Source of the DNA: a virus
Virus record (IMG/VR): IMGVR_UViG_3300042452_001105
Location: 1 to 39,551 of that record
Length of the DNA stretch: 39,551 nucleotides
Strand: one strand, 5' to 3'
The notes below the pieces were generated by a model. The model was not told where the DNA came from, ran no database searches, and saw only the letters and a program-made list of their open reading frames with translations. Positions 6,964-39,551 of the stretch are shown here, piece after piece (the stretch's first letter is position 1; each line of letters starts with the position of its first letter). The translations under genes were made by a program, and so were the position numbers.

Positions 6964-9359
6964 TGAGCGTTATCAATAACGGCATCCTGCTTGGCGCTGA
7001 CGCTGACGCTGCGGTGGGGTATCAGGTATCGCGTTCGCTCAGGTTTAACGCACCTGACTCTGCCTATCTCAGTCGGACCCCCGGATCTGCTGGCGACCGA
7101 AACAAGTGGACCTTTTCGTGTTGGGTAAAGCTTGGAGCAGGTCTTGCTAATAACATTTTTTCTGTTTTTACAGCCAACAGCGGAAACACCGGTCTCATAA
7201 TTCGCAGCGGCTCAATAGGAAGCCCTTATCAGATTGAACTTTTTACTCAGTCCGGCGCAACTGTTCCTCTTGATTTAATCACAACCAGAGTATTTAGAGA
7301 CTACGGAGCATGGTTTCATCTCCTATTTTATTTTGATCTTGCAAATTCTACTCAAGCCGATCGAGCGCAAATCTACATCAACGGAGTTCGCGAGACAAAT
7401 TTTTCTACTAATACTAATACGATAAGCACATCCTCTGTTGGCCGCGACATTAACAATACGTCTGAGCACAGAATAGGTGCGGGCAATGGCTATGCAGACG
7501 GCTACCTCGCCGACGTTCACTTCTGCGATGGTTACGCATACGACCCCAGCTATTTCACCGAAACCGACGCCATTACCGGCCAGCTCATACCCAAGGCTTT
7601 CACGGGCAGCTACGGCACCAACGGCTTCAGACTGACCTTCTCGGATAACTCGGGCACGACGGCCACGACCCTTGGTAAGGATGCAGCGGGCAGCAACAAC
7701 TGGACCCCCAGCGGCTTCTCAGTGGCATCTGGTGCGGGCAACGATTCGCTCGTCGATTCACCCACCGGCTACGGCACGGACACTGGTGCCGGGGGTGAGG
7801 TAAGGGGGAACTACGCGACCATCAACCCGCTGCAGAACGCTGGCGGCGATACATTCTCCAACGGCAATCTGCAGGTTGCCTCTAGCGCATCTAACTACGG
7901 AACACACACCTCGACTATTGCCACCCCACTGTCGGGCAAGTGGTATGCCGAAGTCACCATTGGATCTGCTTCGTCGTACTCGGCAGTTGGCTTGGTATCT
8001 GCCAGCAGTAACTTCACGACAACATCTTGGACCGGATCTCTAAACGGTGTTGCCTACTACGGCAATAATGGCAACAAATACGTTGATGCATCTTCATCAA
8101 GTTACGGCGCATCATTTGGCAATGGCGACGTTATTGGTATTGCCTACGACGCAGACAATGGAACAGTAGCTTTTTACAAAAACGGCACCAGTCAAGGCAC
8201 TATTTCGTCTGTCACGGTGCGCTCCTACTACTTTGGCGGATCTGATTTTGATACCGGTTCGTCAGTTACCTACAACTGGAACTTCGGCCAACGTAGTTGG
8301 GCCTATGCACCACCCTCAGGCTACAAAGCACTGTGCTCGCATAATCTCCCCGAGCCGACCATCCTCAAGGGCAATACCGCGATGGATGTGAAGCTCTACA
8401 CCGGGAATGGTTCAGGGCAAACGATCAGCGGATTGGGATTCAGTCCTGATCTGGTGTGGATTAAAAACAGAGCAGATGCTGAAGTGCATGGTCTTTTTGA
8501 TGTAGTCAGGGGAGCTGATAATTGGCTATCGTCAAACACAACAGATGCTGAAACAAATTACGGTGGCGGATTTGGTGTGACCTCGTTCACGTCGGATGGT
8601 TTTGCCGTTGGAACCGGTACGGCTATTAACGCAAATGGAAAAGCGATCGTTGCTTGGAATTGGGACTGCGGATCGAGCACGGTCACGAACACCAGCGGCA
8701 GCATCAGCAGCCAAGTGAGGGCATCGGCTACCAATGGCTGCAGCGTGGTCACCTATACCGGGACGGGTTCAGCGGCGACTGTGGGTCATGGATGCGGGGC
8801 GGCACCGAGCCTGATTATCACGAAGCGCCGTAATTCAACATCTAACTGGGGCGTCTATCACAGAAGCATCGGGGCAACTAAGTATCTGCTCTTAAATACA
8901 ACTGACGCTGAACAAACTTCGATCGCCCCTTGGAATGACACCGCGCCTACAAGTACGGTATTTAGCGTAAGGGATGCAACTTTCTCGAACGAGTCTGCCA
9001 GCTTTACCTACGTCGCCTACTGCTTCGCCCCTGTGGCTGGTTTTAGCGCCTTTGGAAGCTTTGTTACAAATGGGGCGGACGATAATGCGTTTGTATTCAC
9101 CGGCTTCCGCCCCCGGTGGGTCATGTGGAAGCGCACTGATGGCGCCAACGCATGGGGAATCGTTGATTCAGCGCGAAGTAGTTACAACGTAATTGGCAAC
9201 TATTTATTGGCTAACGCAAGCGATGCCGAAGCGAACTCAACGCTTTGCGACCTCCTTTCCAACGGATTCAAAATGCGAACCAGTGGATTTGGGAACGGCC
9301 AAACCTTTGTCTACGCCGCCTTCGCGGAGTCGCCCTTTAAGTATTCCCGCGCTCGCTAA
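6963..9359 (+). CDS. Large tail fibre/adhesin with LamG-like and SPRY-like domains
   Basis: A 798-residue beta-rich protein, directly after the short fibre (ATG overlaps its TAA). Residues about 20-215 look like a concanavalin/LamG-type sugar-binding domain (SLRFN...WTFSCWVKLG, IYINGVRE, IGAGNGYADGYLADVHFCDG). Residues about 310-450 resemble a SPRY domain (KWYAEVTIG, GDVIGIAYDADNGTVAFYKN). The remaining about 350 residues contain repeats of the type SPDLVWIKNR...W and SLIITKRRNS...W seen in phage and marine adhesins. The domains suggest carbohydrate binding on the host envelope. The LamG-coding part (about 7130-7480) is visibly richer in A+T than its flanks, as if acquired by domain swapping. 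Confidence 0.78.
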   Translation: MSVINNGILLGADADAAVGYQVSRSLRFNAPDSAYLSRTPGSAGDRNKWTFSCWVKLGAGLANNIFSVFTANSGNTGLIIRSGSIGSPYQIELFTQSGATVPLDLITTRVFRDYGAWFHLLFYFDLANSTQADRAQIYINGVRETNFSTNTNTISTSSVGRDINNTSEHRIGAGNGYADGYLADVHFCDGYAYDPSYFTETDAITGQLIPKAFTGSYGTNGFRLTFSDNSGTTATTLGKDAAGSNNWTPSGFSVASGAGNDSLVDSPTGYGTDTGAGGEVRGNYATINPLQNAGGDTFSNGNLQVASSASNYGTHTSTIATPLSGKWYAEVTIGSASSYSAVGLVSASSNFTTTSWTGSLNGVAYYGNNGNKYVDASSSSYGASFGNGDVIGIAYDADNGTVAFYKNGTSQGTISSVTVRSYYFGGSDFDTGSSVTYNWNFGQRSWAYAPPSGYKALCSHNLPEPTILKGNTAMDVKLYTGNGSGQTISGLGFSPDLVWIKNRADAEVHGLFDVVRGADNWLSSNTTDAETNYGGGFGVTSFTSDGFAVGTGTAINANGKAIVAWNWDCGSSTVTNTSGSISSQVRASATNGCSVVTYTGTGSAATVGHGCGAAPSLIITKRRNSTSNWGVYHRSIGATKYLLLNTTDAEQTSIAPWNDTAPTSTVFSVRDATFSNESASFTYVAYCFAPVAGFSAFGSFVTNGADDNAFVFTGFRPRWVMWKRTDGANAWGIVDSARSSYNVIGNYLLANASDAEANSTLCDLLSNGFKMRTSGFGNGQTFVYAAFAESPFKYSRAR

Positions 9360-10500: not shown

Positions 10501-11571
10501 ATGGGCAACGCAGCCGCAATTTCGCTGCAAACGCTGTTTAGGTATTACAAAGGACTGCCGCATCAGGCCGCGGCAGTCAGTCTGCTTGAGCAAGATCTGG
10601 CTGCTAACGGCTACAAAGCTGCAATGCGGCGCGATCGTCCTTGGTTTGAAGCCTGGAGCCAGGATGGCAAGCAAACTGATCTTTCTCAAGCTATAAAGTT
10701 GATCAAGGATTTTGAAGGCTGCCATCTAACTGCCTACCCAGATCCGCTTAGTGGTGGTGATCCGTGGACGATCGGTTATGGCACCACCCGATACAGCGGT
10801 GGTGTGCCGGTAAAGCGCGGCGATAAAATCAACGTGATCGAGGCCGACATGCTATTGCGCCTCGAAGTTGATCGAATCGCAGACAAGTTGACATCGACCG
10901 TGCCCTACTGGCGCGAGATGAATGATGGCCAAAAATGCGCGCTAATCAGTTTCGCCTACAACCTGGGGTCGGGGTTCTACGGTTCAAATGGATTCGAGAC
11001 CATCACGAAGCGCCTGGCCGATCGGAGCTGGTCGGAGGTACCTGCGGCACTGCTTTTGTACCGCAACCCCGGCACCAATGTCGAAGCCGGTCTCCGGCGC
11101 CGTCGTGAGGCAGAAGGACGCGTCTGGGCTGGCACCCCGATGCAGCAGCAGGTGTTCATGCCCAATTCCAGTTTTGCTTTGAAGATCACGCCGCATATCA
11201 CCTACGGCGAATTCGCCCTGGAGCAAGAGGCCAGAAGATTCGATCACCAGTACCAGTGCCACACAGCTCAAAAGCTAGCTGAATTCATAGAACGCGCACG
11301 CACTGAATTCGGTGGCAAGCCAGTGATCATCACATCCGGTTACAGACCGCCCGCGATCAACAAGTCTGTGGGCGGCGCTAGCAACTCAGAACATCTATAC
11401 AACGCACCCGATGTGGGCGCTGTGGATTGGTATATCCAAGGTGCCGATATTTATGCAGTCCAGGACTGGTGTGACAAGCATTGGCCCTACAGCCTGGGAT
11501 ATGGAGCCAAAAAGGGCTTCGTGCATTTGGGCATGCGTGCTGGCAAACCACGCGTGCGCTGGGACTACTGA
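10501..11571 (+). CDS. Two-domain endolysin: GH24 lysozyme + M15 peptidase
   Basis: A 356-residue peptidoglycan hydrolase with two catalytic domains. Residues about 62-210 are a T4/lambdoid-type lysozyme (GH24) with Glu72 in FEGCHL and the DPWTIGYGTT segment at 87-96. Residues about 225-356 are an M15-type peptidase with SGYRPPAIN, SEH at 296-298, Asp309 in GAVDW and His342 in FVHLG. The lysozyme would cut the glycan strand and the peptidase the peptide stem. The first 55 residues form a separate helical segment that may target the wall. There is no signal peptide, consistent with holin-dependent release. The 3' end overlaps the convergent sigma gene by seven bases. Confidence 0.9.
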   Translation: MGNAAAISLQTLFRYYKGLPHQAAAVSLLEQDLAANGYKAAMRRDRPWFEAWSQDGKQTDLSQAIKLIKDFEGCHLTAYPDPLSGGDPWTIGYGTTRYSGGVPVKRGDKINVIEADMLLRLEVDRIADKLTSTVPYWREMNDGQKCALISFAYNLGSGFYGSNGFETITKRLADRSWSEVPAALLLYRNPGTNVEAGLRRRREAEGRVWAGTPMQQQVFMPNSSFALKITPHITYGEFALEQEARRFDHQYQCHTAQKLAEFIERARTEFGGKPVIITSGYRPPAINKSVGGASNSEHLYNAPDVGAVDWYIQGADIYAVQDWCDKHWPYSLGYGAKKGFVHLGMRAGKPRVRWDY

Positions 11572-12434
11572 TAGGCTCTGGCCTTAATGCGCAGCTTATT
11601 GATGATCAGATTCTCTTTGTGTCTGATCGCTTCGCGGCTCAAAAACATCCCTGTGCCGATATCCTGCAGTGACATCGGTGGTGAATTATCCAAGCCGTAA
11701 TGCTTGGTGAGCAGGTCCCTTTCTTCATGGCTCAGCGATAACATCCAGCGTTGCAAGTCTTCGTGCAAGATGCTGCGTTCGATCGATTCTTCCAAAGACC
11801 GGTCATGATCGATGACAACATCTATGAGCTCACTTGCATGATTTTCACTGTTGCATTTGGCATTCAAAGATGAGCATCCATCCATGTGTGCGATATACGC
11901 ATTGAACAGATGCACGGAGACGTCACAGTGTTCGATGCATTCAGTTTTGCTCGGGTATCTGCCATTCTTGCGGTAAAACTCCAATGTGAATTTGCGCAGT
12001 TTGCCCAGCGTCTGAACACCGACCACTGGCAGCTTGATCATGCGATCGTATGCCTCGAGCCCCCTGGCAATAGACTGCCTTATCCACCAATAGGCATAGG
12101 TGCTGAATTTGTAGCCTCTTTCTGGGTCGAACTTCTCGATGCTGCGTGCGAGGCCCATGCAACCTTCTTGCACCAGATCATCGATGGTCATCGACTTTGA
12201 TTTGATCATGTAGCGCTTGGCAGCGAAGACCACCAACCGCAGATTGGCACAAAAGAATTTGTCATATGCACGGCGCCCAATCATTGCAGTGCGCTGTTCC
12301 GATTTGCTCAGTTTGGTCCGCTTGCGCAACGGCATCCAAGCTTGAATTTGCCTAGCAAGTTCGATCTCTTCCGAAGGGGTGAGCAACGGAAACCGGCCAA
12401 TGCTCTCGAGAAAATCGTCAAATGCGGTTGACAT
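11565..12434 (-). CDS. Sigma-70 family RNA polymerase sigma factor (full length)
   Basis: A 289-residue sigma factor of the cyanobacterial group 2 type. Region 1.2 is at residues about 4-34 (DFLESIGRFPLLTPSEEIEL). Region 2 is at about 60-130, with NLRLVVFAAKRYM, the core-binding LVQEGCMGL and the -10-reading YKFSTYAYWWIRQSI. Region 3 follows, and region 4 with its HTH is at about 225-289 (EERDLLTKHYGL...SLQDIG...SREAIRH). I chose the ATG at 12434 because it overlaps the upstream stop (TGATG); an upstream in-frame ATG would add six residues. As last gene of the minus operon it is placed to redirect host polymerase after early expression. Confidence 0.95.
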   Translation of the reverse strand: MSTAFDDFLESIGRFPLLTPSEEIELARQIQAWMPLRKRTKLSKSEQRTAMIGRRAYDKFFCANLRLVVFAAKRYMIKSKSMTIDDLVQEGCMGLARSIEKFDPERGYKFSTYAYWWIRQSIARGLEAYDRMIKLPVVGVQTLGKLRKFTLEFYRKNGRYPSKTECIEHCDVSVHLFNAYIAHMDGCSSLNAKCNSENHASELIDVVIDHDRSLEESIERSILHEDLQRWMLSLSHEERDLLTKHYGLDNSPPMSLQDIGTGMFLSREAIRHKENLIINKLRIKARAYQ

Positions 12435-12969: not shown

Positions 12970-13207
12970 GGCTGACGCGCTCCCAGGGTGCTTCGATCGG
13001 TTCTTTGTTGTCAGGGCGCCACACCCAGGGCTGCTGCATCCACCATTCCCGCAGCTTCGGCGGCATCCGATCTTCGGGGTGGGGTAATGGACCGAGCATA
13101 TCTTCGATCTCTCGGTAGCTCACACCATCGACGCAAGCCGAGATGTAAAGGTTGGAGTAGCCTCGCTGCTTAAGCTCGAGGATCTCTTTGTGCTGAAGCT
13201 CGGTCAT
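12956..13207 (-). CDS. Small HTH-like hypothetical protein
   Basis: An 83-residue protein. The first half (KEILELKQRGYSNLYISA...SYREIEDMLG) looks like a helix-turn-helix that could bind DNA. The second half is Trp/Pro-rich (REWWMQQPWVWRPD). The start overlaps the DatZ stop by four bases. No precise family is recognised. Confidence 0.6.
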   Translation of the reverse strand: MTELQHKEILELKQRGYSNLYISACVDGVSYREIEDMLGPLPHPEDRMPPKLREWWMQQPWVWRPDNKEPIEAPWERVSREWF

Positions 13208-13734
13208 GTGCTGTGCAGTGTGGAATGGAACGCGTTGATGAGTGTGACCTGGACAGCGGGATCAAATGGCGACATGGCCAATCGATCCAACATTTGCTGG
13301 CGCAGCAGTGCTTTTACCTCTGCCGCGTGTTTGCCCAGCCCATTCACTTCGAGAAAGAGCACCGCTTCGGCGGTGTCGCAGTGCTTGACCAGAGCGTGCA
13401 CCTTTGCGGGTGCCTGCTCCTCCAACACACGGAGTTCAGGATAAATCTCCTGCTCAACTCGCGCTAGATGCGCTTTAAGCTCTGTAGTCTTGTGCGGCGT
13501 CGGTGCATCACCAGTGCGAATCTCCGGCAGGTCATGCATCAAGGCAAGCTGCTCAGCCAAAAATTGCTCGTCGGCGGTGAGTCCGACGATCGGTCCCCAG
13601 GCACGCACAAGCAGCCACACGCGGTACATGTGCTCCGCGATGTTTTGTGGGACCGCGGTCTGCACGATTCCCCATCTGGTAATGTGGCTTGCACGCAGAA
13701 ATTCTGCTGCAGTGCGCAATTCAAGCTGAGACAT
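13204..13734 (-). CDS. datZ: DatZ-like HD-domain dATP triphosphohydrolase
   Basis: A 176-residue HD-superfamily (YfbR-like) phosphohydrolase. The metal ligands are in place: His35 in NIAEHMYRVW, His67-Asp68 in LALMHDLPEI and Asp120 in VKHCDTAEA. The length and ligand spacing match cyanophage S-2L DatZ as I recall it (175 residues). S-2L DatZ is known to strip triphosphate from dATP, removing adenine from the precursor pool so that Z is incorporated. Its ATG lies inside the 3' end of mazZ (14-bp overlap), which links it to the Z pathway. A general 5'-deoxynucleotidase is the alternative, but the neighbours argue for DatZ. Confidence 0.88.
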   Translation of the reverse strand: MSQLELRTAAEFLRASHITRWGIVQTAVPQNIAEHMYRVWLLVRAWGPIVGLTADEQFLAEQLALMHDLPEIRTGDAPTPHKTTELKAHLARVEQEIYPELRVLEEQAPAKVHALVKHCDTAEAVLFLEVNGLGKHAAEVKALLRQQMLDRLAMSPFDPAVQVTLINAFHSTLHST

Positions 13735-14026
13735 GCTTCATGGCTCCGTTATCTGCGATGCGCCACACGCGGTGGCGGTTGACGCGCATTTTGCGCTGCA
13801 CAGCATCGGTCAGGTCAATTCCTTTTATGTGTGCCAAATCCAGCGCCAGGATCAACACATCCGCCAGCTCGAGCGGATCATCCTGCCTGTCTGAGGCGAT
13901 AAGCTCACCTAGCTCCTCAAGCATTTTGGCAATGATGCTCAGTGCGGTGCGGTGCGGGTTGAGCCTATCTGCCCATTCTGCAATGTCAGCTTGCAGCTCT
14001 TGCACGCTCATAGATTTCTCGGACAT
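13721..14026 (-). CDS. mazZ: MazZ-like MazG-type nucleotide pyrophosphohydrolase
   Basis: A 101-residue all-helical protein. The MazG metal motif is visible as EELGE at about residues 37-41 followed by ELADV at about 53-57. In cyanophage S-2L, MazZ converts dGTP to dGMP, the substrate of PurZ; position directly between purZ and datZ supports the same role. I chose the ATG at 14026 (sequence AGAGGA just upstream); an ATG at 14011 is also possible. It overlaps purZ by about 40 bp. Confidence 0.85.
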   Translation of the reverse strand: MSEKSMSVQELQADIAEWADRLNPHRTALSIIAKMLEELGELIASDRQDDPLELADVLILALDLAHIKGIDLTDAVQRKMRVNRHRVWRIADNGAMKHVSA

Positions 14027-15077
14027 GTTCCTCTGTGATGTTGGGTGAGCCGACGCGCACGATGTCGTCGATTTTGGGACCGAAGCCGAGGTACGAGACC
14101 ATCGAGCATTCATTGAGCCTGAGCCACAGATCGCGCAGATCCTTCCAACTGGTGCAATACTGTGCGAAGTTCAGGAAGATGAAATCGACCTTGTTCTGCA
14201 CACAGGATTCGATCGCCTGCTGGTGGCTAAATGTGAAGATGCGCCGTGGGAGCTGAGTCACCGTGGTGAGTTCCTGGGCCTGTCCGATCGCCTCGAAGGT
14301 GGTTTCCTGCGAGTCTGGGTATGTTGGGCCGCTCCACTCGCCAGAAATGGGTCGGTTAGCCACACGAATGGGGTACGTGCGGAATACGCCATAGACAGTC
14401 ACTGCGGACCAGCGCATGTACGGCATGCCACAGTCTGCAAGCAGGCTGTAGGTGGACACGTCACGGCAGGTGACATACGGATACTGACCGTGATAGATGC
14501 TCAGGCTGTAGCCCTGGCACCCTTCCACCTGAATGCGGTTGGCTTCCAGATAGATGCGCTGCAGTTCGTGGGTGCCTACCAGCTTGATGCGGTCAAAAAC
14601 CGGGTGCACCGGCTGCATCAGCCCAATGATGTTGTTCTCATCAGGCTTGCGGCGAATCCGCTCTATCTGGGCTGCGCCGACCCCTTTGCGGGTTGAGCCT
14701 GGCGCAGTGCCGCCACCTGATTCTGCATCGCGGTGGCGATTTGTCACTACCGCTGCATTCTGGTGCACGCAAATCTGAATAGATGGCTGCAGCAAATTGA
14801 GCATTTCAGCACTCTGGATCTCTTCCCAGAGGACATCGAGATCGATCAGGCTGCCTGGGCCGAGCACGATGGTGTGCAGGCTGTCTGACACTATGCCGAG
14901 TGGCAACATCCGGTGCACCAGTTTGATGCCGTCTTCAAGGATCAGAGTATGTCCAGCGTTGGGCGAGAGCGCGCAGGCTAAGACTTCGGGATTGTGCTTG
15001 GATGCCAGATAACCGGCAAAGAGGCCCTTGCCGGTTGATCCGTACTGGCCATCCATGATGACTTCGACAGATCTCAT
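13986..15077 (-). CDS. purZ: PurZ, phage adenylosuccinate synthetase-like enzyme of the Z-genome pathway
   Basis: A 363-residue PurA-family enzyme. The P-loop region reads DGQYGSTGKGLFAGYL at residues 9-24. The Asp that bacterial PurA has in its QWGDEGKGK motif is Ser14 here, the known hallmark of PurZ, which uses dGMP instead of IMP. Other PurZ-like blocks are PNAGHT (about 39-44), LPLGIVS, LGPGSLI, GSTRKG and a C-terminal YLGFGPKIDD. The reaction is dGMP + aspartate + (d)ATP to N6-succino-2-amino-dAMP, which host PurB and kinases carry on to dZTP. The ATG overlaps the upstream stop (ATGA). It is shorter than bacterial PurA (about 430), as in other phage PurZ. Confidence 0.95.
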   Translation of the reverse strand: MRSVEVIMDGQYGSTGKGLFAGYLASKHNPEVLACALSPNAGHTLILEDGIKLVHRMLPLGIVSDSLHTIVLGPGSLIDLDVLWEEIQSAEMLNLLQPSIQICVHQNAAVVTNRHRDAESGGGTAPGSTRKGVGAAQIERIRRKPDENNIIGLMQPVHPVFDRIKLVGTHELQRIYLEANRIQVEGCQGYSLSIYHGQYPYVTCRDVSTYSLLADCGMPYMRWSAVTVYGVFRTYPIRVANRPISGEWSGPTYPDSQETTFEAIGQAQELTTVTQLPRRIFTFSHQQAIESCVQNKVDFIFLNFAQYCTSWKDLRDLWLRLNECSMVSYLGFGPKIDDIVRVGSPNITEEHVREIYERARAAS

Positions 15078-23964: not shown

Positions 23965-24288
23965 ATGCCAGCCCTATCACCCAAGCGCCGTAAAGAGCTC
24001 AAGACGCAGTTGCGGCTGTGGATGGACATGGGCTGGCCGCGCTGGCGGATTAATGCCGCCTGCAATGAACAACTCGATATCAACCCAGAGACTGCGGATG
24101 AGCTGATTCAGGAGATCAGGCATGAGCAGCAGCAAGAGCTCACCATTGAGCGGAGTGAGTTCATGACCCAGCAACTCATCAGGCTCGAGGCGCTGGCAAC
24201 CAAGGCTCAGGAGGATGGCAATCTGGGCGTCGCCCTGGGTGCCTACAAGGAGATGCACTTGCTCATAGGTCTGCACGCTCAGCGCTGA
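23965..24288 (+). CDS. terS: Small terminase subunit candidate (TerS)
   Basis: A 107-residue helical protein. The N-terminal basic KRRKELKTQLRLWMDMGW...RINAACNEQLDI looks like a helix-turn-helix, and the rest (about residues 45-100) is a coiled coil (IQEIRHEQQQELTIERSEF). That plan fits small terminase proteins, which bind the packaging site. It is separated from the large terminase by a regulator and small genes, which is less usual. A general DNA-binding protein is the alternative. Confidence 0.55.
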   Translation: MPALSPKRRKELKTQLRLWMDMGWPRWRINAACNEQLDINPETADELIQEIRHEQQQELTIERSEFMTQQLIRLEALATKAQEDGNLGVALGAYKEMHLLIGLHAQR

Positions 24289-24971: not shown

Positions 24972-25001
24972 TTGACATTTCGTGATCGGTTCTGATATGA
25001 T
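24972..25001 (+). promoter_or_regulatory. Strong sigma-70 promoter
   Basis: TTGACA (perfect) and TATGAT (5/6) are 18 bp apart and the -10 is extended by TGA (TGATATGAT). This is the best promoter in the window. A strong Shine-Dalgarno GGGAGGA follows before the ATG at 25026. Confidence 0.8.
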
Positions 25002-25598: not shown

Positions 25599-25930
25599 TG
25601 GCACAGCGCAGGGATTCCAAAGGCCGATTCGCTGGCAGCGGCGCTATTGCTGCTGCAACACGCAGCACTTCTAGTGGCAGCCGCGCTCGATGAGCAGCCA
25701 CGTCTGTAAAGGCTGAACAACAAGGCAAAAAAGCCAGAATGCAAGCTGATAGACGGTCCGAATTAGCTGGATATGGGCCTTCATTTGGTGGTGTGCGTCG
25801 TCGTGTGGCAGCACCATCTGTCGGGCGTCGTGCAACACAGGATGTTTCAGCAAGCCGCAAAAAGCTGAAAACCATGGAGCGCGAGCGCCGCAGTCTCCTG
25901 CGTCGTGGTTCGATGCGTGGTGGCGCTTAA
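25598..25930 (+). pseudogene. Small basic-protein gene interrupted by an in-frame TGA
   Basis: One frame runs from ATG 25598 to TAA 25930 with a single TGA at 25691-25693. Part one (31 residues, MAQRRDSKGRFAGSG...SGSRAR) and part two (RRSELAGYGPSFGGVRRRV...RRGSMRGGA) together look like one continuous Arg/Gly/Ser-rich basic protein of about 110 residues. The opening MAQ.RDSKGRFAGSG is common in cyanophage small proteins near terminase genes. It may be a broken gene, a sequencing error, or a true readthrough. The part after TGA could restart at ATG 25739. It ends overlapping the convergent sigma gene. Confidence 0.6.
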
Positions 25931-26502
25931 ATCGCGTTGAGATCCAGCCCGTCTAAGCAGGTCACCTTGTAGCAGATGCTGGCCTGCTCGACGATCTTCA
26001 AATCACGCTGAGTCAGCCCAGCCCGGTCCAGTATCTCGGTCATCGTGCCACCTTCCGCTGCTGCTTCGCGAAATTTCTGCAATTTGCGCTTGGCGCCACT
26101 GGAGATCCGGATCATGCCGGTTTTCATGTCGATCGATCTTGTGATCGACTGGCGGATCCACCAGTATGCGTAGGTGGACATCTTGTAGCCGCATTCTGGG
26201 TCGTATTTTTCAGCCGCACGCTGCAGGCCGATCGTGCCCTCCTGGAGCAGGTCGGCAAAGGTGATGCTCGTGCCCGAAATGCGCCTGAGGTACTTCTTAG
26301 CAACTGCCACTACAAGGCGTAGGTTGCAGCAGACGAATTGATCACGGGCGCGCCGACCTGACCTGACCAGGCCCCGTGGAGGATCTGGGTGCTTGAGCCA
26401 TAGCTGGATTCGCCGCCCAAGCTCAATCTCCTGCTGCTGGGTCAACAGCGGATACCGCGCTGCCATGTCGATGAATTCTTTCACATCAGACATATCGTGC
26501 AT
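25927..26502 (-). CDS. Truncated sigma-70 factor lacking region 4
   Basis: A 191-residue sigma-family protein. Region 1.2 is EFIDMAARYPLLTQQQEIELG (about residues 9-29). Region 2 is CNLRLVVAVAKKYL, FADLLQEGTIGL and YKMSTYAYWWIRQSI (about 58-125). Part of region 3 follows. It stops (ending CLDGLDLNAI) where region 3.2 and the -35-reading region 4 should begin. The core-binding and -10-reading parts look intact, so it could bind polymerase and use -10-only promoters, or block host sigma. AGGA precedes the ATG. It is transcribed away from the large terminase and is clearly different in sequence from the full-length factor at 11565. Confidence 0.92.
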   Translation of the reverse strand: MHDMSDVKEFIDMAARYPLLTQQQEIELGRRIQLWLKHPDPPRGLVRSGRRARDQFVCCNLRLVVAVAKKYLRRISGTSITFADLLQEGTIGLQRAAEKYDPECGYKMSTYAYWWIRQSITRSIDMKTGMIRISSGAKRKLQKFREAAAEGGTMTEILDRAGLTQRDLKIVEQASICYKVTCLDGLDLNAI

Positions 26503-26512
26503 GATCCTAAAT

Positions 26513-26518
26513 TAAGAT
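26513..26518 (+). promoter_or_regulatory. -10-like motif TAAGAT before the large terminase
   Basis: TAAGAT, 25 bp before the ATG of the large terminase, in the 41-bp divergent gap with the truncated sigma gene. Member of the recurring motif set. Confidence 0.4.
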
Positions 26519-26543
26519 CACAGCCATTACAGCGCAGAACACA

Positions 26544-27884
26544 ATGCCCGGCATCCTGGATTGTGTCGCCGGTGGCAACATCCTTACCGGGCCCAGTCAC
26601 AGTGGGCCAAGCTCAGCTGAGATCCTCGATAAGCTCAACAGCACACTGCTGCCGCACCAGGCGCAGTTTTGCAGCAACGTCGATCACCGGATCCTCGGGC
26701 TGGTCAGTGGATTTGGCGCAGGCAAAACCTATGGCCTGTGCGCAAAAGCAATCAATATCGCCGCGGCCAACATCGGCTACGTGTCAGCCCTATTTGAGCC
26801 TGTTGCGCCGATGTTGCGCGACATTCTGATGCGCTCTTTGGACGATATGCTCGAGTGGCTTGGCTTGCCATTCGATTTCAGGGTCAGCCCGCTGCCCGAA
26901 TACGTGTTGCATTTCAGGGAAGGTGACCATACGATCTTGCTGCGGACCATGGAGACCTGGAACCGCATCAGGGGCCAGAACCTGTGTGCGATCGGCTTTG
27001 ACGAGGTAGACACGGCCAACCGCCGCGTTGCCGAGCAGGCGGCTCGAATGGCACTTGCCCGTCTGCGCTCGGGCAATGTGCAGCAGTTCTATGTGGCAAC
27101 CACGCCGGAAGGCTTCGGATGGGCCTGGGAGACATTCGAGAAGAACACCGCACCTGATAGGCACCTGATCCGTGCGCGCACCCAGGACAACCCACACCTG
27201 CCGGAGGGATTCATCGACTCTTTGATGGCCAATTATCCCGAACAGTTGATTCGGGCGTACCTCGATGGCCAATTCGTCAATCTCAACACGGGGCAGGTCT
27301 ACGACCGGTTCAACCGGGCCAAGCATGTCACCCAGACGCCGTACGACAGCGCAGCTGTGGAGCCACTGCGCGTGGGCATCGACTTCAACGTGGGCAATAT
27401 GTCAGCCGTGATTGCCGTGCGCCGTGGTAATGAGCTGCTTGTCGTCGATGAAGTCAGCGGGGCGCATGACACTGATGCAATTGCTAAGGAGATCAGGGCC
27501 AGATATCCTGCGCATCCGGTCTACATGTACCCAGATGCTTCGGGTGGAAATCGCAGCACCAATGCCACGCAGACGGACATCGCGATCCTGGAATCTTACG
27601 GGTTTAAAAATCAATCCCCACGGAGCAATCCCCCCATACGCGATCGGGTGGCTGCTGTTCAGGCTCTTTTGGAGAATGGGCGTGGAGAAACAAGGATCCA
27701 GATTCTCGATAAGTGTGTTCGGCTGATCGAATCTTTGGAGCTGCAGAGCTACACAGACAAGGGCGAGCCCGATAAGGACGCCGGATTTGACCATATGAAT
27801 GACGCGCTGGGTTATCTGGTCTGGCGTGAGTTCAACCCACTCCACGCAAATGCCGGACGCGGCACCGGAATCAGGCTCTACTGA
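26544..27884 (+). CDS. terL: Large terminase subunit (TerL)
   Basis: A 446-residue DNA-packaging motor. The ATPase half has Walker A GFGAGKT (residues 56-62), Walker B LCAIGFDEVD (147-156) and coupling motif VATTPEG (184-190). The RNase H-like nuclease half has Asp280 in RVGIDFNVG, Asp331 in YPDASG and the acidic HMNDALGY end (about 417-424). It cuts concatemers and drives DNA into the prohead. The length is normal. It leads the structural operon, followed by the portal after a 36-bp gap. Confidence 0.95.
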   Translation: MPGILDCVAGGNILTGPSHSGPSSAEILDKLNSTLLPHQAQFCSNVDHRILGLVSGFGAGKTYGLCAKAINIAAANIGYVSALFEPVAPMLRDILMRSLDDMLEWLGLPFDFRVSPLPEYVLHFREGDHTILLRTMETWNRIRGQNLCAIGFDEVDTANRRVAEQAARMALARLRSGNVQQFYVATTPEGFGWAWETFEKNTAPDRHLIRARTQDNPHLPEGFIDSLMANYPEQLIRAYLDGQFVNLNTGQVYDRFNRAKHVTQTPYDSAAVEPLRVGIDFNVGNMSAVIAVRRGNELLVVDEVSGAHDTDAIAKEIRARYPAHPVYMYPDASGGNRSTNATQTDIAILESYGFKNQSPRSNPPIRDRVAAVQALLENGRGETRIQILDKCVRLIESLELQSYTDKGEPDKDAGFDHMNDALGYLVWREFNPLHANAGRGTGIRLY

Positions 27885-27891
27885 TTTCACG

Positions 27892-27897
27892 TAGAAT
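27892..27897 (+). promoter_or_regulatory. -10-like motif TAGAAT before the portal gene
   Basis: TAGAAT, 23 bp before the portal ATG, in the 36-bp gap after the large terminase. Member of the recurring motif set. Confidence 0.35.
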
Positions 27898-27920: not shown

Positions 27921-29345
27921 ATGACTTACACCGGATACAGGTTCTACGACCGTGCCGTGTTCAGCAGGGTCGCGAATGTCGGGGACACAAACTCAACTTG
28001 GGCTGCCCAAGAGCCTCATTGGGTGCTGATCGAGGACCTGATGCAAGGCACCTACGGCATGCGGAGGAAGCATCGTAGATACCTTCCCCAAGAGCCCAGG
28101 GAGCTCGACGAAAGCTACGATAATCGTCTGGCGCGCAGTGTGTGCCCGCCGTATTATCAGCGACTTGAGCGGATGCTTGCAGGCATGCTCACCCGCAAGC
28201 CTGTGCGGCTCGAAAATGTCGATGATGTCGTGCGAGAGCACCTGTTTGATGTTGACTTGCAGGGCCACGACCTAAATGTGTGGACCTACGAAACGGCCCG
28301 CAAGTTGGTCAGGTACGGACATGTGGGTGTATTGGTGGACGCGCCACAGGGTGGTGAGGGTCGCCCATATTGGGTTACCTATACGCCGCGGGACATCCTC
28401 GGGTGGCGCACTGAGCAGGCCAATGGCTCGCAGCGCCTCACCCAACTGCGCCTGCGCGAATCTGTGATTCTGCCCGATGGCGACTGGGGCGAGAAACAGG
28501 TGGACCAGGTGCGCGTGCTCAAGCCTGGCGAGTACGAAATTTGGCAGCGCAACGAGAAATCGGAATGGTCTCGCACCGAGCAGGGTGGAACCAGCCTGCC
28601 CGAGATCCCATTCACAGTGGCCTATGCCAACCGCGTTGGGTTCATGGACTCGAGGCCGCCGCTCGAGGACATCGCAGAACTCAACCTGAAGATGTATCAG
28701 GTGCAGAGTGACCTAGACAACCAGCTACATATTTCGGCGGTGCCGATGTTGGCGTTCTTCGGATTCCCATCCGCAGCCGAGGAGGTATCAGCAGGGCCTG
28801 GCGAGGCGATCGCATTCCCAGCCGAGGGACGAGCTGAATATATCGAGCCCGGTGGATCAAGTTTTGATTCACAGTTCCGCCGCATGGAGCAGCTCGAGAA
28901 GCAGATCAACGAGCTGGGCCTGTCTGCAGTGCTAGGCCAAAAGCTCGCCGCAGAAACTGCAGAAGCCAAGCGGATCGACCGGAGTCAGGGCGACAGCACC
29001 ATGATGGTGATCGCACAGCAGGTGCAAGACATGATCGACAACTGCCTGCAATTTCATGCCGACTACCTGAACATCACGCAGGCTGGCAGCTGTCTGGTCA
29101 ATCGCGATTTTGTGGGCACCAAACTTGATCCGGCAGAACAGCTGGCACTTTTGCAGCTTTATACCGCAGGCACGATCACTCAGAAGACGCTGCTCGATCA
29201 ACTCGCGCAAGGCGAAGTCTTGGGTGATGATTTTGACACCGACGAAGAGATCATGGCCACTCAATCCGGTGGCCTGATCGAGATGGAGGGCCCTGCGGTG
29301 GAACCGCCCAGCATCGAAGAAGAGATGCCGCCGATCGAAGAATGA
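27921..29345 (+). CDS. Portal protein (DUF4055-like)
   Basis: A 474-residue portal, the dodecameric ring through which DNA enters the head. The segments WVLIEDLMQGTYGMRRKHRR, YLPQEP, YYQRLERMLAGMLTRKP and YETARKLVRYGHVGVLVDAP match the DUF4055-type portal family. The C-terminal part (about 300-460) contains the long helices and ends in an acidic Glu-rich tail (PSIEEEMPPIEE). Position between terL and the MuF gene fits. The stop overlaps the next ATG. Confidence 0.9.
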   Translation: MTYTGYRFYDRAVFSRVANVGDTNSTWAAQEPHWVLIEDLMQGTYGMRRKHRRYLPQEPRELDESYDNRLARSVCPPYYQRLERMLAGMLTRKPVRLENVDDVVREHLFDVDLQGHDLNVWTYETARKLVRYGHVGVLVDAPQGGEGRPYWVTYTPRDILGWRTEQANGSQRLTQLRLRESVILPDGDWGEKQVDQVRVLKPGEYEIWQRNEKSEWSRTEQGGTSLPEIPFTVAYANRVGFMDSRPPLEDIAELNLKMYQVQSDLDNQLHISAVPMLAFFGFPSAAEEVSAGPGEAIAFPAEGRAEYIEPGGSSFDSQFRRMEQLEKQINELGLSAVLGQKLAAETAEAKRIDRSQGDSTMMVIAQQVQDMIDNCLQFHADYLNITQAGSCLVNRDFVGTKLDPAEQLALLQLYTAGTITQKTLLDQLAQGEVLGDDFDTDEEIMATQSGGLIEMEGPAVEPPSIEEEMPPIEE

Positions 29346-29629
29346 TGACAGACCACATTGTGGACGTCACAGATCCCTTGGAGCCGCGGCCACCTCGGCG
29401 CCAAACGCTGGGCTATAGCCGCAAACCATTGCCTGACCACATCTTCGCTGTGGTGCGGCTCAGCTGGTTTAAAGAGGGTAGACCTCAAGAAGTAGATGAA
29501 TTTCAGATCGTGGAGCGCACAAACAACAGCTACGAAGCCTTTATGGCCGCGATCACTCAGGCTATCCAGTGTGGTGCCGATGTGACTGTGATGTGTGATT
29601 TAGATCCTGCTGAGTTTGGGCTTGATTGA
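29342..29629 (+). CDS. Hypothetical protein between portal and MuF
   Basis: A 95-residue protein with a Pro/Arg-rich start (MMTDHIVDVTDPLEPRPPRR) and an alpha/beta rest (SYEAFMAAITQAIQCGADVT). It overlaps the portal stop by four bases and the MuF start by one. No family recognised; head-assembly accessory by position. Confidence 0.7.
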   Translation: MMTDHIVDVTDPLEPRPPRRQTLGYSRKPLPDHIFAVVRLSWFKEGRPQEVDEFQIVERTNNSYEAFMAAITQAIQCGADVTVMCDLDPAEFGLD

Positions 29630-30840
29630 TGGTCGTACCGGCAGCGCTGTATCGAAACGCGATCGATCTGAATCGCTACAGCAACAGCGTGGCCAGGCGT
29701 ATTATCAACGCCTACAACGACATGATCATCAATGCTGTTGATCAGCTACGCAGCATTGATGAGCTGTCGGCACCAAATAAGGCCGCAAGGCTGCGCGGCA
29801 TTCTGCAACAGCTCAAAGAAAGCCTCGGCACATGGGCAGGCGACAGCACAGAACTGGCCACCAGTGAGCTGCAGGGGCTGGCCGAGTTGCAATCGGAATT
29901 TGTGGCTGAGCAGCTGCGCAAAGCTCTGCCTAAAGACGCGCGCAGACTGGTCAACACGGTAGAGATCAGCCCGCAATTTGCAGAGTCTGTGGTCACTACG
30001 GATCCAACGCAAATCAATGTGGTGACACTGAGCGATGACTTGGTAGCTGCAGTCCAGGGCGCGCCGCAAACATTCAGCCTGACTGCATCACAAGGCACGA
30101 CGATCACGCTGCCCAACGGAAAGACCGTCGAGAAGGCCTTCCGGGGCCTGGCGGTAGACCAGGCCGAGAGATTTAGTCAAACGGTACGGACGGGGCTCTT
30201 GTCGGGCGAGACGACGCCGCAGATCGCAAAGAAGTTGATTGGCTCTCTGCAGTTTGGCGAAGAGGCCAAATCCGTGCGGCAGCTGATCGCAGCCGGTGGC
30301 CAGTCAACTGCTGTTGCGGACAATCAGATCATGGCGCTGGTCAGAACCAGCATCAACCAGGTGGCGAACACAGCCAGCCAGCAGGTGTATGAGGCCAACC
30401 AAGATATCACCAAAAAGTACAAGTATGTAGCCACGCTCGATACCAAGACGTCACCGATCTGCCGGGCACTCGATGGTAAGGAATTCGAGTATGGCAAGGG
30501 GCCGATGCCGCCGCAGCATTTCAACTGCCGCAGCACCACGGTGCCGATCGTGGATTATGAAGGCCTAAAAGAGGCCGGATACGACTTCGTACCACCAGCG
30601 GCAGGCCGCAGGGCAAGTATGGATGGGCCAGTACCTGCCAACACCACATATGGCAAGTGGCTCTACGACCAGCCTGCGTCAGTCAAGGCCGATGTGCTGG
30701 GTAAATCGAAGGTCGCATACTTCGACAAATTGACTCAAGAATATGGCGCCGACAATGCGATGGCGAAGTTAGTGCGAGATGACGGGTCGGAATTAACCTT
30801 GGATCAGTTGCGTCGCCGCTACGGCAAGATCGATGCCTAA
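29629..30840 (+). CDS. MuF-like head morphogenesis protein
   Basis: A 403-residue minor head protein of the phage Mu gpF / SPP1 gp7 type. The MuF core is at about residues 240-310: LVRTSINQVANTASQQVYEA, then KYVATLDTKTSPICRALDGK and PPQHFNCRSTTVPI with conserved Cys, His and Cys residues. The ATG at 29629 overlaps the upstream TGA, so I prefer it to an in-frame TTG. It is normally attached to the portal and may be ejected with the DNA. The C-terminal about 90 residues (YGKWLYDQPASVK...) are an extra helical part common in cyanophage homologues. Confidence 0.9.
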   Translation: MVVPAALYRNAIDLNRYSNSVARRIINAYNDMIINAVDQLRSIDELSAPNKAARLRGILQQLKESLGTWAGDSTELATSELQGLAELQSEFVAEQLRKALPKDARRLVNTVEISPQFAESVVTTDPTQINVVTLSDDLVAAVQGAPQTFSLTASQGTTITLPNGKTVEKAFRGLAVDQAERFSQTVRTGLLSGETTPQIAKKLIGSLQFGEEAKSVRQLIAAGGQSTAVADNQIMALVRTSINQVANTASQQVYEANQDITKKYKYVATLDTKTSPICRALDGKEFEYGKGPMPPQHFNCRSTTVPIVDYEGLKEAGYDFVPPAAGRRASMDGPVPANTTYGKWLYDQPASVKADVLGKSKVAYFDKLTQEYGADNAMAKLVRDDGSELTLDQLRRRYGKIDA

Positions 30841-31021
30841 AGATATGAGCAAAAAGCAAGCCAAGATCGGCAAAGTGATGTCCGAGTTCAAGGCCGGTCA
30901 ACTGCACAGCGGCAAACCTGGGCCAGGTAAAGGACCGACCGTCAAAAGCAAAAAGCAGGCACTCGCTATTGCGCTGCGCCAAGCTGGCGTACCCAAAAAA
31001 GGCAAGCGCGGCAAAAAGTGA
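30833..31021 (+). CDS. Small basic DUF6496-like protein
   Basis: A 62-residue, Lys-rich protein (MPKDMSKKQAKIGKVMSEFK..., ending KKGKRGKK). The core KVMSEFKAGQLHSGKPGPGK with AIALRQAG matches the DUF6496 family found in phages and bacteria; function unknown. It overlaps the MuF 3' end by eight bases. Confidence 0.8.
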   Translation: MPKDMSKKQAKIGKVMSEFKAGQLHSGKPGPGKGPTVKSKKQALAIALRQAGVPKKGKRGKK

Positions 31022-31026
31022 TCAGT

Positions 31027-31032
31027 TAAGAT
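31027..31032 (+). promoter_or_regulatory. -10-like motif TAAGAT before the scaffold gene
   Basis: TAAGAT, 28 bp before the ATG of the scaffold gene, in the 39-bp gap. Member of the recurring motif set. Confidence 0.4.
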
Positions 31033-31060
31033 GCGTCTGAAATAGCCCTACGGGTCATTC

Positions 31061-31741
31061 ATGTCTGACGAAATCATTCAGGAGCCTACGGCGACTGATA
31101 GTGAAGATCTCACTGGCCTGAAGCGCAGCATCGAAGCGCTTGAGCGCAAAAACCACGAATTGATCGGCAAGATCAAGGACTTGAAATCTAAGGCGCCACC
31201 CGTGCCGGATGGTGTTGATATCAACGAACTGCTCGAGTTCAAACGCCGCAAAGAGCAGGAAGAGCTCGAGAGCCAAGGTAAGTACAACGAAGCTCGCCAG
31301 GCACTGGAGCAGCAATTCCGCGAAGTCACGTCTGAAAAAGACAAGCGGATATCTGAGCTCGAAGCACGCGTCCGGGAATTAGAGCTTGTCAGTCCTGCAG
31401 TGTCAGCGCTGGCAGATGTTGTGCACGACCCCGATTTGATCCTCAAGACCAAGCTCAGCGCCGACAAGATCGAACGCGAGCAGGATGGCACAGTCGTGGT
31501 GGTGGACGGCTACCAGCGCATTCCGGTTCAGGAATGGGCAAAGACGTTGCCCGCATGGATGCAAAAACAACCCAAGCCCCAGGGCAGCGGGGCACCCACC
31601 AATCGAGGCTCGAGCGAAATGCCGACCGGCCTGAAAAATCCATTCACGCCCGAGCATTTCAACCTCACTGAGCAATCGCGATTATTCCGGACCGACCGCG
31701 ATCTATATGAGAGAATGAAAGCTGCAGCCAAATCGATGTAA
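31061..31741 (+). CDS. Scaffolding protein candidate
   Basis: A 226-residue, highly charged coiled-coil protein (coiled coil about residues 18-115: SIEALERKNHELIGKIKDL, RRKEQEELES). The C-terminal half is Pro/Gly-rich and ends in a basic helix (LFRTDRDLYERMKAAAKSM). That build and the place just before the capsid gene are typical of prohead scaffolds, whose C-terminal basic helix binds the capsid protein. Confidence 0.85.
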   Translation: MSDEIIQEPTATDSEDLTGLKRSIEALERKNHELIGKIKDLKSKAPPVPDGVDINELLEFKRRKEQEELESQGKYNEARQALEQQFREVTSEKDKRISELEARVRELELVSPAVSALADVVHDPDLILKTKLSADKIEREQDGTVVVVDGYQRIPVQEWAKTLPAWMQKQPKPQGSGAPTNRGSSEMPTGLKNPFTPEHFNLTEQSRLFRTDRDLYERMKAAAKSM

Positions 31742-31744
31742 GAT
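31739..31744 (+). promoter_or_regulatory. -10-like motif TAAGAT before the capsid gene
   Basis: TAAGAT overlaps the scaffold stop codon, 77 bp before the capsid GTG. The gap then holds a repeated GGCTACGCC (at 31762 and 31779-31787). A separate promoter for the capsid gene would raise its dose; member of the recurring motif set. Confidence 0.35.
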
Positions 31745-31821
31745 GAAGCTGTAAGTGCGCAAGGCTACGCCGAGCCGCTGGGGCTACGCCCACAACCGTA
31801 AACCAATCTTGAGGATCTGTC

Positions 31822-32853
31822 GTGGCGACTCTTCGCTCTGACATCATCATCCCCGAGGTATTTACGCCGTATGTCATCGAGCAGACCACCCAGCGTGATG
31901 CCTTCCTGGCTTCCGGTGTGGTGCAGCCGATGGCTGAGCTGAATGCCACGGAGGGCGGTGATTTTATCAACGTGCCTTTCTGGAAAGCCAACCTTTCCGG
32001 CGACTTCGAAGTGCTGTCTGACAGCACCAGTCTGACCCCCGGCAAAATCACTGCTGACAAGCAAGTCGGCGTGATCCTGCACCGCGGTCGTGCCTTCGAG
32101 GCCCGCGACCTTGCTGCCCTTGCAGCAGGCGCTGACCCCATGGCCGCCATCGGTGCCAAAATTGCCGATTACGTTGCTAACCAGCGCCAAAAGGACCTGC
32201 TGTCCTGCCTCGGCGGTGTGTTCGGCAGCCTGGGCGCTACCAGCAGCTCTGCCGCCTTCTTTGGTCTGACCATCGACGGCGAATCGGGTGATACCCCGAC
32301 TGTGCTGAGCCCCCGTCACGTGGCTGAAGCCCGCGCGCTCCTGGGCGACCAGGGCGACAAGCTGACTGCCGTTGCCATGCACTCCAAGGTCTACTACGAC
32401 CTGGTTGAGCGCAAGGCGATCGACTACGTGACCGAGACCGATGCCCGTCTCACCTCCAGCGTGACCGATTTTGTGGGTGGCAGCATTGCCTCCGCCTACG
32501 GTCCCGTGAGCGTGCCCACCTACATGGGCCTGCGTGTGATCGTGTCTGACGATGTGCAGACCGATGGCAGCGGTTCCTCGACCGAGTATGCCACCTACTT
32601 CTTCACTGCTGGCGCTGTTGCCAGTGGCGAACAGATGGCAATGCAGACAGAGACCGACCGTGACATCCTCGCCAAGAGCGATGCCATGTCGATCGACCTG
32701 CACTACTGCTATCACCCCGTTGGCGCAAAATGGGGGGTGACCACCACCAATCCCACCCGCGCTCAGCTGGAGACCGTGGGCAACTGGTCGAAGGTGTACG
32801 AGCTGAAGAATCTCGGCATCGTGCGCGCCACCAATACCTCCAACATGGATTGA
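31822..32853 (+). CDS. Major capsid protein
   Basis: A 343-residue HK97-fold capsid subunit of the gp13-like type. MATLRSDIIIPEVFTPYVIE and RGRAFEARDLAALAAGADPM are family marks; the middle KVYYDLVERKAIDYVTE and late YHPVGAKWGVTTTNPTRAQL also fit. It starts on GTG at 31822, supported by GAGG eight bases upstream. No delta domain is seen, since scaffolding is a separate gene. It should be the most abundant protein. Confidence 0.92.
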   Translation: MATLRSDIIIPEVFTPYVIEQTTQRDAFLASGVVQPMAELNATEGGDFINVPFWKANLSGDFEVLSDSTSLTPGKITADKQVGVILHRGRAFEARDLAALAAGADPMAAIGAKIADYVANQRQKDLLSCLGGVFGSLGATSSSAAFFGLTIDGESGDTPTVLSPRHVAEARALLGDQGDKLTAVAMHSKVYYDLVERKAIDYVTETDARLTSSVTDFVGGSIASAYGPVSVPTYMGLRVIVSDDVQTDGSGSSTEYATYFFTAGAVASGEQMAMQTETDRDILAKSDAMSIDLHYCYHPVGAKWGVTTTNPTRAQLETVGNWSKVYELKNLGIVRATNTSNMD

Positions 32854-36679: not shown

Positions 36680-36858
36680 AGGAAGACTCATGGCTATTCT
36701 TTGAGCTCTTCCTTGCAACCGAGCTTGGCAAGACGGTGAGCGAGCTAAGGCAGCAGCTCACCGAGGGCGAATTCATGATGTTTGCCGCCTACTACGAAGT
36801 GAAAGGCAAACGAGAAAAAGAGGAAATGGATAAGGCCAAAGCACGTCAGCGCAGGTAG
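36320..36858 (+). CDS. GT: Tail assembly chaperone gpGT, made by -1 frameshift
   Basis: Fusion product: 118 residues of gpG, then a -1 shift on A AAA AAC (36667-36673), then 61 residues in the -1 frame to TAG 36856-36858. The shifted part reads RVEEDSWLFFELFLATELGK, then TVSELRQQLTEGEFMMFAAY, then a charged tail. This is the expected T-domain style (ATELG.TV.ELR..L...EF). No start codon with a ribosome site is seen that would make T on its own, so frameshifting is the natural reading. The total length is 179 residues. Confidence 0.88.
36667..36673 (+). promoter_or_regulatory. Slippery heptamer for programmed -1 frameshift
   Basis: AAAAAAC read as GC(A AAA AAC) in the gpG frame, the strongest known bacterial -1 slip sequence, seven bases before the gpG stop codon window ends. 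The -1 frame stays open for 61 codons after it. Confidence 0.88.
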
Positions 36859-36861
36859 ACT
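36856..36861 (+). promoter_or_regulatory. -10-like motif TAGACT before the tape-measure gene
   Basis: TAGACT overlaps the gpGT stop codon and is 23 bp before the GTG at 36885. Member of the recurring motif set. Confidence 0.35.
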
Positions 36862-39349: not shown

Positions 39350-39551
39350 CCTCAAGCGTCTTTGAAGACCTAATTGGCAGTTCGCCATACGCGATCATCG
39401 AGCTGTTTGAAATTGAACTGCGCCAAGATCTGCACGGCAGCGACGAAACCTACCGCTTCCACAACGGCGTTAACCAAACCACCGCTGCTGGTGATGTGGT
39501 GTGGAAGGGCAACAGCTACTACGCCTTGCCCATTGAAGCCGAGGGATTTGA
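39346..39551 (+). CDS. L: Gene L, true 5' end (continues at base 1)
   Basis: The start of tail-tip gene L: ATG at 39346 in an ATGA overlap with the M stop, reading MTSSVFEDLIGSSPYAIIEL and on through the repeated 99 bp. Through the circular joint it continues as the partial gene at 1-1453. The first 107 bases (39346-39452) are unique; 39453-39551 duplicate 1-99. Confidence 0.93.
   Translation, partial: MTSSVFEDLIGSSPYAIIELFEIELRQDLHGSDETYRFHNGVNQTTAAGDVVWKGNSYYALPIEAEGF
39453..39551. repeat. 99-bp direct terminal repeat, right copy
   Basis: Identical to 1-99. Removing one copy gives a 39,452-bp circle in which gene L is intact. Confidence 0.97.

Follow-up and report, generated by a model that had tools for sequence, protein, structure and literature searches.

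By its sequence, the product of positions 25927-26502 of the window (the whole stretch analysed here, 39,551 nucleotides of IMG/VR record IMGVR_UViG_3300042452_001105) is a sigma-70-family protein, a close relative of sigma-70 in which the promoter-melting part is retained but the -35-reading part is missing. Sequence comparison further identifies it as a real and conserved region-4-less sigma of S-2L-like cyanophages that carry the gene cassette for 2-aminoadenine (Z) DNA. We posit, with about even confidence, that this short sigma is a working promoter-specificity factor of domains 1.2-2-3, and that its likely niche is initiation on 2-aminoadenine DNA. The genes concerned are:

25927-26502, minus strand: short sigma factor, 191 aa, with regions 1.2, 2.1-2.4 and 3, without region 3.2 or 4
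26503-26543: divergent gap of 41 nt between the short sigma and terL genes, with TAAGAT at -31 of terL and no -35 match
26544-27884, plus strand: terminase large subunit (terL), divergent from the short sigma
11565-12434, minus strand: full-length phage sigma, 289 aa, at the end of the early operon and convergent with lysozyme

The short reading frame begins with ATG, and its product matches the Pfam families Sigma70_r2 (3.3e-16, 59.3 bits, against a curated cut-off of 24) and Sigma70_r1_2 (1.4e-06), so that region 2 homology, on which membership of the sigma-70 family turns, lies above the curated cut-off. The same search matched neither the region 3 nor the region 4 family. Past region 2.4 the sequence aligns to other sigmas over their region 3. 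An AF2 model (pTM 0.64, mean pLDDT 84.9, the last ~11 residues low) sets region 3 apart as a separate helical domain at residues ~130-189 (helices 135-149, 154-161 and 165-189); the C-terminus falls just ahead of region 3.2, so that the protein has neither sigma finger nor region 4. The best sequence matches are ordinary sigma-70 proteins, and the model matches sigma-A chains in RNA polymerase holoenzymes, with SigA of Syn7942 at the top (9dvs_G, E 5.5e-8). A preliminary description had already recognised a 191-aa sigma with regions 1.2 and 2 and without region 4, lying beside the large terminase, and a second, full-length sigma at 11565-12434. The reading frame and the Pfam matches bear out the first point, although region 3, visible in the alignment and the AF2 model, had been overlooked; terL indeed starts 42 nt away on the opposite strand; and the full-length frame is real, with Pfam matches to r1_2, r2 and, weakly, r4 (4.2e-05, 23.4 bits, just below the 24.1 cut-off).

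Standard members of the family have region 4, which reads the -35 element and binds the flap. Six-frame translation of the window found no region 4 downstream of the short sigma in any frame, or elsewhere besides the full-length sigma, and a six-frame search of nine contigs, of the kind that the preliminary description had advised for a separately encoded region 4, found no such gene. Since region 4 is absent from the protein, from the downstream frames and from separate ORFs, the domain make-up demonstrated by the sequence is that of a truncated sigma-70 member and not of a standard one.

It had also been considered that a sequencing error might truncate a full-length gene. A scan of viral contigs found 57 IMG/VR loci encoding the same short sigma (62-100% identity), all of which, unless a contig end interrupts them, terminate at a common position; four further, more divergent short sigmas of the same length (54-60% identity) came from a profile scan. 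With dN of 0.05-0.17 against dS that is >1.3 or saturated, selection on the gene is, from these alignments, strongly purifying. The shared end point, the purifying dN/dS and the lack of region 4 codons downstream hence rule out an error or frameshift, and demonstrate conservation of the short form. In a maximum-likelihood tree, 17 short-sigma representatives form a single clade (100/99) that sits on a long branch, and the full-length sigmas from short-sigma phages cluster with the sigmas of S-CBS1, S-CBS3 and KBS-S-2A. Because these companions branch elsewhere, the tree demonstrates a separate origin and rules out a recently truncated copy of the phage's own full-length sigma. The sigmas of S-CBS1, S-CBS3 and KBS-S-2A are cyanosiphovirus proteins of the sigma-70 family, and the full-length sigma of the window shares their place near lysozyme. 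All three contain region 4, with R or K at position 423, whereas the short sigma is a clade apart, absent from these three phages as far as searched. The two sigmas of the window are 47% identical over 148 residues. Against more distant relatives the short sigma retains 63-76% identity and its full-length companion 36-45%, and of the two it is thus, on these identities, the short one that is better conserved.

The window ends in a 99-nt terminal direct repeat (1-99 and 39453-39551) and is therefore a complete genome, circularly permuted and ~39.45 kb long. It contains a gene cassette that the preliminary description, correct in placing a region-4-less sigma beside a full-length one, had overlooked as an accompaniment of the short sigma:

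13986-15077, minus strand: PurZ-type adenylosuccinate synthetase, GSTGKG motif
13721-14023, minus strand: MazZ-like NTP pyrophosphohydrolase
13204-13734, minus strand: DatZ-like HD-domain dATP triphosphohydrolase

The three genes (13204-15077) abut or overlap, like those of S-2L. The gene set by which Z phages are recognised, a PurZ with Ser in GSTGKG together with MazZ and DatZ homologues, is present in the window, and its replication genes resemble those of cyanophage S-2L, whose DNA contains 2-aminoadenine (PMC8342488). From cassette and replication genes together, the window probably represents a 2-aminoadenine phage whose own DNA contains the modified base, and 2-aminoadenine genomes are probable, on gene content, in both freshwater and marine cyanosiphoviruses. 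A 107-aa ORF at 23965-24288 (plus strand) resembles a helix-turn-helix protein or a small terminase subunit.

PurZ and the short sigma occur together in all 18 records that span both loci, namely the window, 15 IMG/VR contigs, S-2L and G047, one record (G015) having only a terminal PurZ fragment; some PurZ contigs of the lineage are too short to extend to the short-sigma locus. The five longest contigs with a short sigma and no PurZ (G001, G005-G008) are not counterexamples, since they end before the PurZ locus. Neither gene was found in 19 KBS-like relatives, chosen by a KBS-S-2A-type terminase and similar to the window in their virion genes, the PurZ search there having no positive control of its own; 12 of these relatives have one full-length sigma. 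A tblastn search with the PurZ of the window likewise found no match in KBS-S-2A. On portal and capsid trees, in which two of the ten short-sigma phages were labelled from the short sigma alone, short-sigma phages are scattered among the others (at least 3-4 changes), so that virion genes fail to explain the distribution of the short sigma. In contrast, terL and the replication block travel together with the short sigma and PurZ, and the divergent arrangement with terL (gap ~40-55 nt) recurs in nearly all relatives. The capsid encoded within 27921-32853 of the window is 87-96% identical to that of PurZ-less phages (L415, L435 and KBS-S-2A) and terL only about 60%, a difference which suggests that head genes recombine between Z and non-Z phages.

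We take the demonstrated co-occurrence with PurZ to sit largely at the level of a lineage or module, as far as gene content tells. In the records searched, the short sigma is confined to this S-2L-related Z lineage; no such sigma was found in Z phages outside it (PurZ at 47% identity or less), and it is therefore not required for Z genomes in general. The most telling case, on sequence comparison, is S-2L itself. Its S2L_15 ('sigma 70', MW334946) is a 59% identical relative of the short sigma, and it shares PurZ, MazZ, DatZ, exonuclease, helicase and primase homologues with the window; its terL and capsid are only ~25% identical and its sigma gene lies elsewhere, not adjoining terL, yet PurZ and the short sigma are kept. 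The S-2L protein has ~70 extra C-terminal residues without similarity to region 4, and a search of this tail for a concealed region 4 or a fused partner gave no match. The only N run of the record (MW334946, L082), at about 6965-6970, lies inside sigma region 2.3 and breaks the reading frame, so that the pocket residues and frame of S2L_15 are unreadable. Unlike in the window, no full-length sigma was found in S-2L.

The preliminary description had noted a recurring -10-like motif and thought that it would fit a short sigma preferring promoters with only a -10 element. The promoter-like sites of the window, besides that in the divergent gap, are:

27892-27897, plus strand: late -10-like element TAGAAT, at -29 of the portal gene
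36856-36861, plus strand: late -10-like element TAGACT, at -29 of the tape-measure gene
24972-25001, plus strand: host-type promoter TTGACA-18-TATGAT with TG before the -10, near-consensus and conserved in relatives

The motif itself holds up: TARRMT stands ~27-34 nt ahead of the terL, portal and tape-measure start codons, without a -35. Among sequences <85% identical, and with a pattern chosen after some sites had been viewed, 15 of 21 have it at -36 to -24 of terL and 15 of 16 at the same distance from portal, where shuffles average 0.6 (maximum 4); upstream TTGACA matches are no better than shuffled. At the portal and tape-measure genes, part of its conservation is accounted for by a frequent overlap with the stop codon of the gene before. 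Its proposed connection with the short sigma does not survive comparison with KBS-S-2A, which has a full-length sigma only and in which the element recurs at -30 of the portal and putative tape-measure genes; the motif hence cannot be credited to the short sigma. TARRMT is common to cyanosiphoviruses with and without the short sigma. A de novo motif search of the gaps with a simple Gibbs sampler gave nothing convincing, a depletion of TATAAT apparent in the window is inconsistent among relatives, and the late half has no excess of -35/-10 promoters (9 observed, 7.7 expected). The host-type promoter at 24972-25001, conserved in G021, G004 and G009, faces the 3' end of the short sigma.

Late promoters of T4 carry a -10-like element but lack a -35. 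They are served by gp55, which resembles the short sigma in being a small phage sigma that lacks region 4. The T4 protein has diverged far, and its C-terminus binds the sliding clamp, whereas the short sigma has region 3 and remains close to sigma-70; we liken the two by domain layout. On that analogy, the best reading is that the short sigma would work most like gp55. Region 2 would dock on the beta-prime clamp helices of host RNA polymerase, the protein would recognise and melt the -10 element and, without region 4, it would open promoters with no -35 contact. It would serve initiation on Z-DNA, probably at late genes, alongside the ordinary full-length phage sigma. The two sigmas may also effect a temporal switch, as the preliminary description suggested. 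We infer core binding, promoter opening, timing and a preference for Z-DNA; of these, promoter opening is a likely role, judged from the residues conserved. In a 15-row alignment (sigma-70 numbering), the core-binding residues D403, Q406 and E407 and the melting residues Y425, Y430, W433 and W434 are invariant, as are N383 and Q437.

These residues also bear on the anti-sigma or decoy role suggested in the preliminary description, in which the short sigma would take the clamp helices via region 2 and, for want of regions 3.2 and 4, form a poorly active holoenzyme, shutting down host SigA transcription. Such a decoy would account for the good conservation of core-binding regions 2.1 and 2.2, the missing region 4 and the lack of a promoter class assignable to the short sigma. 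However, region 2.3 is the most conserved stretch of the protein (mean 0.96, against 0.85-0.88 for 2.1 and 2.2), with intact melting residues that a decoy would not need, which favours a DNA-melting protein; the short sigma is also absent from relatives with similar virion genes. We therefore disfavour the pure form of this role and consider a decoy unlikely. Somewhat less probable still is a two-part sigma, in which the short protein would give regions 1.2-3 and a flap-binding protein like T4 gp33 or the full-length sigma would supply the region 4 function. Both sigmas are present in the long records of the lineage, S-2L excepted, and since gp33 does not resemble sigma in sequence (PMC2988020), such a partner could be overlooked. 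Bacillus SigO-RsoA has sigma domains 2 and 4 on separate proteins (PMC8103513); the six-frame search of nine contigs gave no separate region 4 protein, in contrast to a split sigma of that kind, and S-2L, where no full-length sigma was found, also speaks against the idea. That the protein acts after initiation, binding -10-like bubble sequences during elongation (pausing or antitermination), would fit the retained single-stranded-DNA-binding region 2.3 and the absent region 4, but we found no sequence evidence for it, know of no dedicated sigma-like post-initiation factor of this kind, and hold it to be very improbable.

Initiation by the short sigma on Z-DNA is an attractive hypothesis, resting on gene association and residue changes. 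T:Z pairs have three hydrogen bonds, and Z at -11 carries a group that hinders melting by sigma-70. As Lee et al. (2004) are cited in PMC4496690, sigma-70 melting needs an unsubstituted C2 hydrogen on the -11 adenine; 2-aminoadenine is substituted there, which makes a Z-adapted pocket plausible. In Taq sigma the -11 base pocket comprises Y253, F242, F248, R246 and E243 (PMC5101437). All 61 short sigmas have C or S at the position of sigma-70 R423 (the Taq R246 equivalent), every aligned one has Y at that of F419, and the full-length companions retain the usual pocket, including R423. The occurrence of the short sigma only with the PurZ/MazZ/DatZ cassette, together with the changed pocket, is what points to Z-DNA transcription start as its likely niche. 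Sampled cyanobacterial sigmas, however, have M (47), R (17), K (9), T (2) or L (1) at 423, so that C or S alone proves nothing on Z adaptation, and R423C is weakened as proof. M is found at this pocket position in many Prochlorococcus and Synechococcus sigma factors (L299-L378). It also counts against the niche that the full-length companion has an unchanged pocket, although its promoters would be Z-DNA too. We hence offer only tentatively, as a doubtful proposition, that the altered pocket accepts the flipped 2-amino base that hinders ordinary sigma-70, which would make the short sigma the first known transcription factor adapted to all-2-aminoadenine DNA. The link to Z-DNA, drawn from sequence records, is correlational.

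The accessible part of the open-access literature searched yielded no description of a truncated sigma in Z phages. The short sigma would add a region-4-less phage sigma beside gp55, as well as a minimal natural sigma of regions 1.2-2-3. It may help host RNA polymerase to start on altered DNA, and its company with the Z cassette makes initiation by RNA polymerase on Z-DNA directly testable.
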